From Verrucosispora sp. NA02020 (GTDB lineage: Bacteria > Actinomycetota > Actinomycetes > Mycobacteriales > Micromonosporaceae), in contig NZ_CP054923.1 in assembly GCF_013364215.1 (NCBI RefSeq), forward strand, positions 186,001 through 250,000: a stretch of DNA of 64,000 nucleotides, given 5' to 3'. A program made the position numbers and the translations under genes. The notes under the pieces are model-generated. The model searched no databases, was not told where the DNA came from, and worked only from the letters and a program-made list of their open reading frames with translations. The first letter of the stretch is position 1; each line of letters opens with the position of its first letter. This document shows, one piece after another, positions 30,813 to 57,407 of this stretch.

Positions 30813-32150
30813 TCAGCGGCCCAGCGCGGCCAGCGGCACGTCGGCGTCCGCCAGCGCCCGGATCACCGCGGCCGACTCGCTGAAGCCGATGAGAAGTACG
30901 GCGTCGGCACCGAAATCCTTGATCTGCTTGGCACCGTCACTGAAGTTGATCGGTGCGGCGTCGGCACCCTCGCCCGGCTCGTAGCCGAGCAGCGTCACCT
31001 TGTCGCCGCCGAACCCGGCCCGCTCCAGTTCGGCCCGGACGGCCTCTTGGAGGCCCTCGCCGTAGGCGTCCTTACGGGCCACGATGGCGATCTTCTGCGG
31101 CCCGTCGCGGAGGATCACGTCGGCCAACGCCCGACCCTGGAGGCTGTCCGGCGGCGCGGTACGGAAGTAGAGGCCCTTGTCCTCCGCGTCGGTCAGCGAC
31201 GCGGCGGTGTTCGACGGGGAGAAGAGGATGCGGCCGGCCGCCACCACGTCCGGCAGGACGGCGGCTGAGATACCGGAGGCGCCGGCCCCGATGATCACGT
31301 GCACCCCGGCACCGACGTGGCTGGCGACCGTCCGCTTGGCGACCGTCGGGTCCGTGCCGTCGTCGCCGTCGATCCAGACCACGTCCTCGTCGAGCACACC
31401 GCCGGCCGCGTTGATCTCCTTGATCGCCAGGCCCACACCGGCTGCGATCGGCGGGTACGCCAGGGCCAGGTCGCCGGTCTTGGGCAGCAGACCGCCGAGG
31501 ACGAGCGGCGCGCCGCTGGGCTGCTGGCTGCCACGCGGCGGCGCCTTCGTGCTCGCCGCCGACTCGTCCCCGGCGCCGACGAACTCCGTCTTGGCGTCGT
31601 TGAGCTGCTGGTTGTCGAAGTGCAGGGTGGCGTAACTGGCGGTGGCGGGCTCACCGGCGTCGGTGAACCCGGCGCGGGTGATCGACACGCTGCGGTACTC
31701 GATGTCGTCGCCGTCGCGGGCCAGCCGCAGGCACTGGGCGGGGGTCTCGCAGCGGGTGCCCTCGTTGGTGACGCCGACGATCTGCCGGGCGATGGCCGCC
31801 GGGTTGGTGCTGCCGGCGAGTTCCGTCGCGAGCGCGCTGATCACCACCGCGTCGTACGCCTCGGCGGCGTAGAGGAAGTCGTTCAGCCCCGGGTCCATGG
31901 ACCGGAGCCGGTTCTTGAAGTCCTCCGGCAGCGGAGTCAGGGGAGTGGTGCCCTTCATGCCGTCGACGAGGTTGGCGCGATCCTGCAACTCTTCCGGGTA
32001 CGAGTTGAGCATGTTGCCGTCCGTACCGTAGAGGCGCACCTGGTCGGCGCCCGCCTCCTCGGTCTGGTCGTTCCCGCATGCGCTGGTGGCGAGCAGGAGG
32101 GTGGCGCAGGTGGCCATGATGGCCGCCCGCAAGCCGCGTGACATGTGCAT
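30813..32150 (-). CDS. LivK-type ABC binding lipoprotein, apparent circular permutant
   Basis: 445 residues with a lipoprotein signal (LLLATSAC, Cys25). In normal proteins of this family the mature chain begins with LLPxTG..GPP..AGVxLAxxEINxAGGV and ends with YxxDGN..GTxP..FxxRL..YAAExYDAVxxxALA..CxTxxxCLxLxxxGxDIxY. Here the order is swapped: residues 37-192 are the usual C-terminal part (LYGTDGNMLNSYPEEL, YAAEAYDAVVISALA, CETPAQCLRLARDGDDIEY), a 20-residue Ser/Pro/Gly linker follows, and residues 213-445 are the usual N-terminal part (LVLGGLLPKTGDLALAYPP, AIKEINAAGGVLDED, ending ALADADVPLAALGR). Lengths match one complete lobe pair, so this looks like a functional circular permutation. No permease or ATPase is next to it. 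Confidence 0.75.
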   Translation of the reverse strand: MHMSRGLRAAIMATCATLLLATSACGNDQTEEAGADQVRLYGTDGNMLNSYPEELQDRANLVDGMKGTTPLTPLPEDFKNRLRSMDPGLNDFLYAAEAYDAVVISALATELAGSTNPAAIARQIVGVTNEGTRCETPAQCLRLARDGDDIEYRSVSITRAGFTDAGEPATASYATLHFDNQQLNDAKTEFVGAGDESAASTKAPPRGSQQPSGAPLVLGGLLPKTGDLALAYPPIAAGVGLAIKEINAAGGVLDEDVVWIDGDDGTDPTVAKRTVASHVGAGVHVIIGAGASGISAAVLPDVVAAGRILFSPSNTAASLTDAEDKGLYFRTAPPDSLQGRALADVILRDGPQKIAIVARKDAYGEGLQEAVRAELERAGFGGDKVTLLGYEPGEGADAAPINFSDGAKQIKDFGADAVLLIGFSESAAVIRALADADVPLAALGR

Positions 32151-53399: not shown

Positions 53400-56300
53400 A
53401 TGTCCAGACTCCGTACCCGGCTGTCCGCCGTGCTCGTCGCGGTCGGCCTCGTCCTCACCGCGGCCCCCGCACCGCCGGCCGCCGCAGCCGGTGGGCCCAA
53501 CCTGGCCGCCGGCCGTCCGGCCACCGCCAGCAGCGTCAACGGCTCGTTCGTCGCGGCCAACGTCACCGACGGCAACGCCGGCACCTACTGGGAGAGCGGT
53601 GGTGCCCTCCCGCAGTGGGTGCAGGTCGACCTGGGCTCCGCCCACTCCGTCGACCAGGTCAAACTGAAACTGCCGGCCGGCTGGGAGTCCCGCACCCAGA
53701 CGCTGTCGGTGCAGGGCAGCACCACCGGCAGCGCCTTCGCCACGATCGCCGGTTCGGCCGGCCGCACCTTCAGCCCGGCCGGTGGCAACACGGTCACCCT
53801 CGACTTCCCGGCCACCACCACCCGGTACGTGCGGATCGCGATCACCGCGAACACCGGCTGGTCCGCCGCGCAACTCGCCGAGTTGGAGGTGTACGGCGCA
53901 GTGGCCTCGTCGGCCAACCTGGCGGCCGGTCGGAGCATGTCCGCCAGCGGCCACGCCGACGTCTACGTCGCCGGCAACGCCAACGACGGCAACCAGAGCA
54001 GCTACTGGGAGAGCCCGAACAACGCCCTCCCGCAGTGGATCCAGGTGGACCTGGGCGCCACGGTCACCGTCGACCGGCTGGTGCTCAAACTGCCCGCCGG
54101 GTGGGGCGCGCGCACTCAGACGGCGACCGTGCAGGGCAGCACCACCGGTACGAACTTCACCACCCTGGTCGCCTCCACCGGGTACGCCTTCAACCCGGCC
54201 AGCGGCAACACGGTGAGCATCACCGTCGGCTCGGCCGCCACCCGCTACGTCCGGTTGCTGGTCACCGCGAACACCGGCTGGTCGGCGGGGCAACTGGCCG
54301 AGATCGAGGTGTACGGCCCGGCCACCGGTGACACCCAGCCGCCGTCCGCGCCGACGAACCTGGCGTTCACCGAGCCGGGCAGTGGGCAGGTGCGGTTGAC
54401 GTGGTCGGCGTCGACGGACAACGTCGGGGTGACCGGGTACGACGTGTATGCCAACGGTGCGTTGCGGGCGAGTGTGTCGGGTACGACGTTGGCGTTCTCG
54501 GACACGCAGCCGGCGAGTGCCACGGTGTCGTACGTGGTACGGGCCAGGGACGCGGCGGGCAACATCTCCGCGAACAGCAACACCGTCACCCGTACCGGCA
54601 GCACGCCCGGCGGCACCGACCTGGCCGCCGGCAAGCCGGCCACCGCCTCGTCGATGGTGCACGTCTTCGCCGCGGCCAACGCCGTCGACGGCGACGTCAC
54701 CACCTACTGGGAGGGGGCACCGGGCGCGTACCCGGGCACGTTGACGGTCGCGCTCGGCGCCAACGCCAGCGTCAGCGCGATCGTGGTGAAGCTGAACCCG
54801 GACCCGGCGTGGGGTCCGCGCACCCAGACCTTCTCGGTGCTCGGCCGGGAGCAGTCCGCCTCCGGCTTCAGCACGCTGGTCGGCTCGGCGACCTACTCGT
54901 TCAGCCCGGCGGGCAGCAACACGGTCACCATCCCGGTCTCGGCGACCGCCGCCGACGTGCGACTCTCCTTCACCGCCAACACCGGGTCGTCGAACGGGCA
55001 GGTCGCCGAACTCCAGGTGATCGGCACCCCGGCACCGAACCCGGACCTCACCGTCACCACGGTGACCTCCGCCCCGGCCAACCCGGTGGAGACCGATCAG
55101 CTCACGCTCACCGCCACCGTCCGCAACGCGGGCACCCTGGCCGCCGGCGCGACCACGGTCGACTTCGCCCTGGACGGGACGAAGGTGGGCCAGGCGGCCG
55201 TCGGCGCGCTCGCCGCCGGTGCGTCGACGAGCGTGTCGACCACCGTCTCGGCCCGGAACGCGGGCAGTTACCAGCTCAGCGCCACGGTCGACCCGGCGAA
55301 CACGATCATCGAGCAGAACGAGGGCAACAACGCGTACACGAACCCGACCCGGCTGACGGTCGGCCCGGTGGCCAGCTCCGACCTGGTCGCCTCGGCGGTC
55401 ACCTGGTCACCGGGTACACCCGGCGCGGGTGCCACCGTCCGCTTCTCGGTGACCCTGCGCAACCAGGGCACCGTCGCCTCGGCGAGCGGGTCGCACGGCA
55501 TCACGCTGACCGTGCTGAACGACGCCGGCACGGCGGTGCGGACGCTCACCGGATCGACGGGCGGCGGCATCGGCGCGGGTGTCACGGCGAGCCCGGTCGA
55601 CCTGGGCACCTGGACGGCGGCCAACGGCCGGTACACCGTCCGGGTGGTGATCGCCGCCGACGCCAACGAACTGCCGGTGAAGCGGGCCAACAACACCAGC
55701 GAACGTCCGCTGTTCGTGGGACGCGGCGCCAACCTGCCGTACGACCACTACGAGGCCGAGGAGGGCTCGGTCGGCGGCGGAGCCCAGGTGATCGGGCCGA
55801 ACCGGACCATCGGCGACCTGGCCGGAGAGGCGTCCGGCCGGCGGGCGGTGACCCTCAACACCACCGGCGCGTACGTCGAGTGGACCACCAAGGCGCCGGC
55901 CAACGCCCTGGTCACCCGCTTCTCCATCCCGGACGCCCCGAACGGAGGCGGGATCACCTCGACGTTGAACATCTATGTCAACGGGGTGCTGCACAAGCCG
56001 ATCAGCCTCACCTCGAAGCACATCTGGCTGTACGGCGCCGAGGCCAGCCCGAGCGACTCGCCGAGCGCGGGCCCGCCCCGGCACCTCTACGACGAGGCGA
56101 ACGTGCTGCTCAACTCCACCATCCCGGCCGGCAGCCGGATCCGGTTGCAGAAGGACCCGGCGAACACCACCACGTACGCCGTCGACTTCGTCGACCTGGA
56201 GCAGGTGACTCCCCGGGAGAACCCGGACCCGGCGCGGTACCGGGTGCCGAACGGGTTCAGCCACGCCGACGTGCAGAGCGCGTTGGACGCGGTCCGGATG

Positions 56301-57407
56301 GACACCACCGGCAACCTGGTCGGTGTCTACCTGCCCGCCGGCACGTACGAGACCGCCCAGAAGTTCCAGGTGTACGGCAAGGCGGTGAAGGTGGTCGGCG
56401 CCGGCATGTGGTTCACCCGGTTCCAGACGCCGTCGTCGCAGCAGAACACCGACGCCGGGTTCCGGGTGGAGCCGAGCGCCAGCGGGTCGACCTTCTCCCA
56501 CCTGGCGTTCTTCGGCAACTACACGGTCCGGCAGGACGGGCCCGGCAAGGTCTGGGGTGAACTCAAGGACGTCGACGACCTCACCCTGGACAACGTCTGG
56601 GTCGAGCACACGGTCTGCGCGTACTGGGGGGTGAGCGTCAGCGGCCTGAAGATCACCGACAGCCGCTTCCGGAACACCTTCGCCGACGCGGTGAACCTGA
56701 CCAACGGCAGCACCGACAACCTGGTCAGCAACTCGGAGGGCAGGTCCAACGGCGACGACGCCTTCGCGCTCTTCTCCGCGACCGACCAGGGCGCGTCGAC
56801 CGGCAACCACGGCAACGTGTTCGAGAACCTGACCGCCACGTTGACCTGGCGGGCGGCCGGGATCGCCGTGTACGGCGGCTACGACAACGTGTTCCGCAAC
56901 CTCTACATCGCGGACATGCTGACGTACTCGGGCATCACCATCAGTTCACTGGACTTCGGATATCCGTTCGTCGGATTCGGGTCCAGCCCACCGACCCGTT
57001 TCGAGAACATCTCGTTGGTCCGGGCCGGTGGTCATTTCTGGGGTGCGCAGACCTTCCCGGCGATCTGGGTGTTCTCCGCGTCCAAGGAGTTCCGGGGCAT
57101 CCGCGTCAGCGACGTGGACATCGTCGACCCGACCTACTCCGGCATCATGTTCCAGACCAAGTACACCGGCAGTCAACCGGAGAACCCGATCACCGACACG
57201 GTCTTCACCAACGTGTCGATCAGCGGTGCCCGGCGCAGCGGTGACGCCTTCGACGCCAAGTCGGGCTTCGGGATCTGGGTCAACGAGATGCCCGAGGCGG
57301 GTCAGGGCCCGGCAGTCGGCTCGGTCACCTTCACCAACCTGCGGTTGAGCGACAACTGGCAGGACATCCGCAACACCACGTCCACCTTCACCATCAACCG
57401 CAACTGA
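53400..57407 (+). CDS. Large secreted GH87-like glucanase with F5/8C, FN3 and CARDB domains
   Basis: 1335 residues, ATG 53400. Signal peptide about 1-31. Domain order by sequence: F5/8C at about 32-165 and 170-310, FN3 at 310-400, a third F5/8C at 404-545, two CARDB domains (NPDLTVTTVTSAPANP, 546; SSDLVASAVTWSPGTP, 658), an N-terminal glucanase-type binding domain from 778 (YDHYEAEEGSVGGGAQ), then a beta-helix from about 947 with NGDDAFALFSATDQ, the GH87 Asp pair. It is a paralogue of the preceding glucanase with the catalytic part at the other end. Likely binds and cleaves insoluble alpha-1,3-glucan. Confidence 0.88.
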   Translation: MSRLRTRLSAVLVAVGLVLTAAPAPPAAAAGGPNLAAGRPATASSVNGSFVAANVTDGNAGTYWESGGALPQWVQVDLGSAHSVDQVKLKLPAGWESRTQTLSVQGSTTGSAFATIAGSAGRTFSPAGGNTVTLDFPATTTRYVRIAITANTGWSAAQLAELEVYGAVASSANLAAGRSMSASGHADVYVAGNANDGNQSSYWESPNNALPQWIQVDLGATVTVDRLVLKLPAGWGARTQTATVQGSTTGTNFTTLVASTGYAFNPASGNTVSITVGSAATRYVRLLVTANTGWSAGQLAEIEVYGPATGDTQPPSAPTNLAFTEPGSGQVRLTWSASTDNVGVTGYDVYANGALRASVSGTTLAFSDTQPASATVSYVVRARDAAGNISANSNTVTRTGSTPGGTDLAAGKPATASSMVHVFAAANAVDGDVTTYWEGAPGAYPGTLTVALGANASVSAIVVKLNPDPAWGPRTQTFSVLGREQSASGFSTLVGSATYSFSPAGSNTVTIPVSATAADVRLSFTANTGSSNGQVAELQVIGTPAPNPDLTVTTVTSAPANPVETDQLTLTATVRNAGTLAAGATTVDFALDGTKVGQAAVGALAAGASTSVSTTVSARNAGSYQLSATVDPANTIIEQNEGNNAYTNPTRLTVGPVASSDLVASAVTWSPGTPGAGATVRFSVTLRNQGTVASASGSHGITLTVLNDAGTAVRTLTGSTGGGIGAGVTASPVDLGTWTAANGRYTVRVVIAADANELPVKRANNTSERPLFVGRGANLPYDHYEAEEGSVGGGAQVIGPNRTIGDLAGEASGRRAVTLNTTGAYVEWTTKAPANALVTRFSIPDAPNGGGITSTLNIYVNGVLHKPISLTSKHIWLYGAEASPSDSPSAGPPRHLYDEANVLLNSTIPAGSRIRLQKDPANTTTYAVDFVDLEQVTPRENPDPARYRVPNGFSHADVQSALDAVRMDTTGNLVGVYLPAGTYETAQKFQVYGKAVKVVGAGMWFTRFQTPSSQQNTDAGFRVEPSASGSTFSHLAFFGNYTVRQDGPGKVWGELKDVDDLTLDNVWVEHTVCAYWGVSVSGLKITDSRFRNTFADAVNLTNGSTDNLVSNSEGRSNGDDAFALFSATDQGASTGNHGNVFENLTATLTWRAAGIAVYGGYDNVFRNLYIADMLTYSGITISSLDFGYPFVGFGSSPPTRFENISLVRAGGHFWGAQTFPAIWVFSASKEFRGIRVSDVDIVDPTYSGIMFQTKYTGSQPENPITDTVFTNVSISGARRSGDAFDAKSGFGIWVNEMPEAGQGPAVGSVTFTNLRLSDNWQDIRNTTSTFTINRN

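Follow-up and report, generated by a model that had tools for sequence, protein, structure and literature searches.

The window, a stretch of 64,000 nucleotides from Verrucosispora sp. NA02020 (contig NZ_CP054923.1, positions 186,001 to 250,000), contains a gene in which the parts of a LivK-type solute-binding lipoprotein were found in swapped order. The features of this gene and of its divergent neighbour are listed in Table 1. The motif LLATSAC at Cys25 was read by eye and is taken by us to be a lipobox from the familiar pattern; with a signal sequence and this motif present, export and lipid anchoring are predicted at the sequence level. A pattern search recovered a lipobox in 25 of 28 permuted rows. 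About 23 residues separated the C-like from the N-like part of the protein; the first-pass annotation had placed a linker of 20 residues between them, and its position held while its length was slightly revised. The linker started inside a GAGDESAAS junction, the core of which, [AT]G[DN]E, also occurred in families f16 and f13. The scanned neighbours were a 3-hydroxyacyl-CoA dehydrogenase, an enoyl-CoA hydratase, the 138-aa ORF and an AHSA1-type protein, and no ABC gene adjoined the permuted gene in the window, in agreement with the first reading.

Table 1. Features of the permuted gene and its divergent neighbour (positions in the window)
Feature	Position	Strand	Basis
Permuted LivK-type solute-binding lipoprotein, 445 aa	30813..32150	-	ORF, Pfam match, alignment in both orders
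Signal peptide, residues 1-24, lipobox ATSA followed by C25	32079..32150	-	sequence, read by eye
Cys25 (lipid attachment) and short tether, residues 25-36	32043..32078	-	sequence
Old C-terminal segment, now first, about residues 37-190 (YGTDGN, YAAEAYDAV, Cys pair)	31581..32042	-	alignment to canonical L061
Linker from old C-terminus to old N-terminus, about residues 191-213	31512..31580	-	junction comparison
Old N-terminal segment, now last, residues 214-445, ends before DGN strand	30816..31511	-	alignment to canonical L061; PF13458 3-216
Divergent neighbour, 138 aa	32278..32694	+	no Pfam/NCBIfam match at E <= 0.01

The segment order was evaluated against profiles, a canonical homologue and known structures. 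PF13458 (Peripla_BP_6) matched residues 217–439 only, which correspond to positions 3–216 of the 343 in the profile, at 103.7 bits (curated cut-off 31.7); the chain in its natural order did not run through the full profile. The canonical-order reference was a protein of 428 aa (L061:3247-4533) encoded beside livF in a genome from another family of the same order. It aligned to the protein in two pieces and in swapped order: residues 34–171 corresponded to 269–403 of the reference (104 bits, 41% identity) and residues 192–438 to 30–268 (178 bits, 43% identity). When the protein was re-ordered in silico, one end-to-end alignment of 366 columns was obtained (42% identity, 264 bits). The re-ordered chain matched Peripla_BP_6 over 3–312 at 117.4 bits, and the canonical homologue matched it over 2–312. 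Furthermore, the significant structure match of the natural-order chain was confined to residues 214–444, and residues 2–343 of the re-ordered chain matched PDB 4n0q over 10–334. A partial profile match that lengthened on re-ordering indicates a permuted derivative rather than an ordinary LivK member. The chain stopped where the canonical reference goes on into the DGN motif, which is the end point that had been noticed from the sequence as the place where YGTDGN would follow. The C-terminal motifs came first in all 43 scorable permuted rows (5 of 48 were unscorable), and the N-terminal motifs came first in all 40 scorable canonical rows (9 of 49 were unscorable). A pattern for the S79 loop (28 of 48 permuted and 41 of 49 canonical rows) was set aside, being too strict for how this loop reads in the genus of the window. 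A scan of viral contigs for further relatives found none. The gene is thus a circularly permuted LivK-type (Peripla_BP_6) protein, with its C-terminal ~150 residues before its N-terminal ~230; both the motif order and the circular permutation proposed in the first-pass annotation were confirmed.

The conservation of this order was explored in other genomes. The protein was matched at E ≤ 1e-10 in 45 of 61 genomes, including all 36 other genomes of the same genus. One colinear, near-full-length copy was present in 35 of these 36, and the last (G014) had two adjacent matches in the same order and in different frames. In G014 (L063 4837-6185) the permuted gene was split over two frames, owing to either a draft-assembly error or a pseudogene. 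The search for orthologues with the same segment order, which had been suggested as a check, was also positive in other genera, with colinear orthologues in Micromonospora yasonensis (74%) and Phytohabitans suffuscus (66%). Within the family Micromonosporaceae, 187 of 250 genomes matched at E ≤ 1e-20. The level of E ≤ 1e-90 was reached by 63 rows from the genus of the window, counting its own genome, and by 83 from other genera, distributed over 29 of 44 genera. Among the matches listed in this search (down to about 1e-116), all were colinear over nearly the whole query, and the few Micromonosporaceae rows between 1e-116 and 1e-90 are presumably colinear as well. The other 41 matching genomes gave weaker matches, and the five that were read (L111, L112, L113, L117, L118) were canonical. 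The linker and the cut site were conserved among the orthologues. In six comparisons with Micromonosporaceae orthologues, dN was 0.09–0.18 and dS was 0.34–0.51; dN was thus well below dS, which points to purifying selection on the gene. The conservation across genomes excludes chance as the source of the swapped order.

The gene occurred twice in its genome at 100% identity because it lies in a tandem duplication of ~149 kb, in which C1:167679-317073 is repeated directly to about 466687 with small differences. The copies were 99.9–100% identical in the stretches compared, and the window was covered throughout. Two differences were noted, one of about 60 bp near C1:169172 and one of about 279 bp. 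Positions 54325–54601 of the window, which lie inside an ORF of 1335 aa (53400–57407, + strand) with an apparent signal peptide, are single here; the second copy of the duplication has this stretch doubled in tandem, an extra unit of ~279 bp. The duplication is either a real recent amplification or an assembly artefact. A near-perfect repeat of this kind is open to assembly trouble, and the permuted gene could in principle be a mis-join of two halves of normal genes. The colinear copies in 35 of the 36 congeneric genomes, the same order in G014 despite its split, and the colinear orthologues of M. yasonensis and Phytohabitans suffuscus with their conserved linker and cut site exclude such a mis-join, the probability of which is practically nil. 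Either a decayed remnant that does not fold or a fused pair of unrelated halves would be in line with the AlphaFold prediction (pLDDT 44, pTM 0.43), which was too poor to judge the fold; such low confidence is unsurprising, as only three sequences were supplied. This explanation is very improbable in view of the low dN relative to dS, of the identity of each half (39–43%) to one and the same canonical homologue, and of the match of the re-ordered chain to 4n0q.

Beyond the family, 124 of 298 genomes of the order matched the protein at E ≤ 1e-20. Colinear copies at 41–47% identity were found in 45 genomes of family f16 and in one of f13. Among the matches listed, those of families f10, f8, f15 and f4 and of some genera of f1 were split as expected for the canonical order. 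The class search (394 genomes), for which the f13 protein was the query at E ≤ 1e-75, yielded 28 matches, 11 colinear and 17 with the N part only, and added families f49, f41 and f39. The phylum search (396 genomes, E ≤ 1e-65) yielded 18 matches, 8 colinear and 10 with the N part only, and added families f122, f81 and f68. More distant copies will have been missed at these strict class and phylum thresholds. As judged from these homologues, the permuted order is widespread and conserved in families of Actinomycetota.

Two cut sites were distinguished among the permuted proteins. The type A cut lay just before the Y-x-x-D-G strand (families f1, f16, f13, f49, f41 and f39), and the type B cut, which was taken from chain ends and the alignment, lay about 20 residues later, for example after DGNMGNALGENFDAG (families f122, f81 and f68). 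Counted in the alignment, the D of the Y-x-x-D-G motif corresponded to D226 of 3ipc, which we take to be Glu226 of LivK and, by the known LivK domain boundaries, to be located in lobe 2. The alignment for the trees excluded 16 of 44 permuted rows, which were extra representatives of f1 and f16 and not all near-copies. P_L098 and P_L163 were kept out of the later trees because the lipobox pattern had picked the wrong place in them, and for the thinned tree that followed 17 more rows were taken out and 17 new rows were added. The first tree (53 rows) put all canonical proteins on one side of a branch with support 91. This single split into canonical and permuted proteins was lost with wider sampling. 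On the 62-row tree the order must have changed five times, a number already required by the strongly supported branches alone. The groups for the AU tests were named in part after the trees had been seen. A single clade of all permuted rows was rejected (ΔlnL 153, p-AU 5e-77), as was a single clade of cut type A (ΔlnL 146, p 2e-5), and a single clade of cut type B was not rejected (p 0.125). Further one-clade tests gave p 2e-9 for groups I and II, p 0.007 for group I with four type B rows, p 0.039 for group II with L147 and p 0.0023, a rejection, for groups II and III. In quick trees of the separate parts, the C part rejected a type A clade (p 6e-42), whereas the N part did not (p 0.087). Group I (f1, f16 and f13) was one clade in the 62-row tree (98/94) and was not in the thinned set, where forcing it cost 0.45 lnL and was not rejected (p 0.30). 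The [AT]G[DN]E junction was present in 26 of 32 group I rows, in none of the 12 other permuted rows and in 1 of 36 canonical tails, and this shared junction favours a single origin of group I. Whether the clade of the window and f16 share one origin depends on the sampling.

Both forms were found within one genus, that of genome G650. At E ≤ 1e-30, 68 of its 118 genomes matched, of which 5 carried permuted proteins (73–100% identity to L147) and 63 gave partial matches of the canonical type. In addition to L147 (permuted) and L156 (canonical), the loci read comprised four further permuted and 13 further canonical ones. LivF-G-M-H were present in all four new permuted loci, and LivF-G-M in 12 of the 13 new canonical loci, with LivH in 11 (L198 ends at a contig edge). 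The five permuted proteins (group III) grouped in one clade (100/99) with 12 of the 14 canonical congeners, C_L200 (on a long branch) and C_L156 being outside; their placement inside rather than beside the canonical congeners had a support of only 92/50. The linkers were informative about the origin of the permuted form. That of L187 runs from ..DYITGQI through PDSTDVKPDQKIQGAPA (17 residues) to KGDGV, which is followed by FTVG. The C-termini of its canonical congeners read ..EYIAGQI or ..EYIAGNI, with tethers that end, for example, in ..KGDGT before L. A [DNE]G end before the N segment was shared by 10 of the 12 permuted rows from groups II, III and type B and by 29 of 36 canonical rows. All 32 group I rows lacked it, as did the five canonical relatives nearest to that group. 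Linkers of permuted proteins thus tend to retain the tether end typical of the canonical proteins related to them. A linker composed of an old C-terminus, a spacer and an old N-terminal tether supports duplication with loss of both outer halves, the origin that had been proposed from the window. The loci read contained no intermediate, whether duplicated or fused, and hence we infer the duplication and fusion step from the linkers.

The gene neighbourhoods were compared within and outside Micromonosporaceae. No liv cluster was found beside the permuted gene in the 10 loci of the family that were read with flanks of about 3 kb, and two of them (L098 and L101) contained a weak LivG-like ATPase match (29–30%). 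The 138-aa divergent gene adjoined the permuted gene in all 62 Micromonosporaceae loci of the first set, as it did in 8 of 10 further loci, and its identity across the family was 58–91%. Outside the family, 20 of 24 distinct permuted loci encoded LivF in the stretch read, with an identity to the reference of 66% or more; the four others were L088 and L140 (both G340), L091 (contig edge) and L162 (contig edge, LivH present). G340, a genome of f16, has two permuted copies, L088 and L140, and the stretches read around them contained no liv genes. In the usual canonical arrangement, the binding-protein gene converged on livF-G-M-H, and in many cases a response regulator lay upstream or polA was nearby. 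A response regulator was also located beside the permuted gene, on the side away from livF, in loci of f16, f13, f49 and f41 and not in those of f39, f122, f81 and f68; its ANTAR type was seen for L062 only. In the genome of the window, PF13458 matched at ten places; the match ran over most of the profile at eight of them and over 3–216 only at both copies of the permuted gene. The polA-liv operon of this genome has its own canonical binding protein (29% identity). In that operon (L135, C1:5368000-5383000), LivF-G-M-H were 28–42% identical to the references, versus mostly 46–80% elsewhere. Since permuted genes usually adjoin livF-G-M-H in the same way as canonical ones, the permuted protein very probably serves an ABC importer in the other lineages of Actinomycetota. 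In Micromonosporaceae it looks like an orphan.

The number of origins and the role of the orphan protein admit other explanations. A single ancient permutation that was inherited vertically and also passed on by horizontal transfer would be compatible with group I, which does look like one event with a common [AT]G[DN]E junction, with the arrangement of the first, smaller tree and with the N part, which alone does not reject a type A clade. Two different cut sites, the rejection of a single permuted clade, the clade that group III shares with canonical proteins of its own genus and the linkers that keep the tether end of local canonical relatives speak against it, and a single origin is improbable. 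The two cut sites, the tree tests (under the models used) and the linker sequences indicate several independent permutations in Actinomycetota, probably at least four, with groups I, II and III and type B counted as one event each. As for the role, the protein of Micromonosporaceae may have left transport and become a surface receptor or sensor, perhaps together with the 138-aa protein. The orphan locus with its conserved divergent neighbour, the long branch to the clade (0.69) and the canonical binding protein kept by the liv operon of the genome are consistent with this role. However, the neighbour matches no Pfam or NCBIfam family, and orphan binding proteins can also serve importers encoded far away. 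A receptor is therefore conceivable and rather unlikely.

The preferred explanation, to which a probability of about 0.86 is assigned, is that the gene encodes a functional permuted type I binding lipoprotein, which arose from a canonical gene by duplication and fusion, recurred elsewhere and looks like an orphan in Micromonosporaceae. The chain would run from the lipid-anchored N-terminus through the strand of the YGTDGN loop to the old C-terminus, across the linker of ~23 residues to the old N-terminus, and would end before the YGTDGN strand. The same secondary-structure elements would then close into the usual two-lobe trap. A canonical gene was presumably duplicated in tandem and fused in frame, and the first N part and the last C part were lost. 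In most other lineages read, the permuted protein would be the binding protein of the adjoining LivF-G-M-H importer, as suggested by gene position, and the orphan of Micromonosporaceae is probably still a binding protein. Its ligand may be amino-acid-like. Equivalent permutations would have occurred independently in other lineages of Actinomycetota at two neighbouring cut sites. A more far-reaching proposal is offered tentatively, with odds below even: the permutations of liv-operon binding proteins in Actinomycetota, at least four and independent, with cuts in two adjacent loops that flank the ligand-contacting DGN strand, may each have arisen by duplication and fusion at the operon, and may have been favoured because the tether moves from lobe 1 to lobe 2, which would alter the presentation of the trap to the importer or its closure.

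Natural circular permutations are usually encountered long after the event and with a single origin. In the present case, canonical and permuted forms share the same operon position, once within one genus, and the linker is still readable. Hence, the duplication–fusion route and any benefit of re-anchoring are directly testable. Moreover, annotation based on profiles reports such permuted proteins as partial matches, which is a caution for its use, and natural permuted binding proteins of importers could be scaffolds for biosensor design.

No report of permuted LivK-type proteins was found in the literature searched, a coverage outside which most subscription papers fall. The LivK and LIV-binding structures 4n0q, 3ipc, 1usg and 2lbp match the N part in its natural order, and 4n0q and 3ipc match most of the re-ordered chain; unlike the protein of the window, all four are unpermuted. 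Canonical binding proteins of actinobacterial liv operons, such as L061, belong to the same family, and other permuted lineages share their position on the livF side, whereas the protein of the window differs from them in segment order, anchoring point and the added linker. The closest known case is TpMglB-2 (Tp0684) of Treponema pallidum, for which a crystal structure of a lipidated, circularly permuted type I glucose-binding protein was described (PMC4990184). According to that paper, TpMglB-2 still binds its ligand and changes conformation despite the permutation; the authors propose a class "Type Ic" and see a possible connection with anchoring to the membrane (PMC4990184). A lipid-anchored, permuted type I chain is common to both proteins, in the window as judged by sequence only. 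TpMglB-2 belongs to the sugar-binding MglB family, whereas the protein of the window belongs to the LivK family. In TpMglB-2, the first three strands of the N lobe were moved to the chain end and a fourth lobe crossing was added (PMC4990184); the protein of the window is cut instead by the DGN loop, near 226 of 3ipc, and its predicted strand order differs from the one described for TpMglB-2. A permuted type I binding protein was thus already known, and the LivK family, the cut sites and the recurrence look new.
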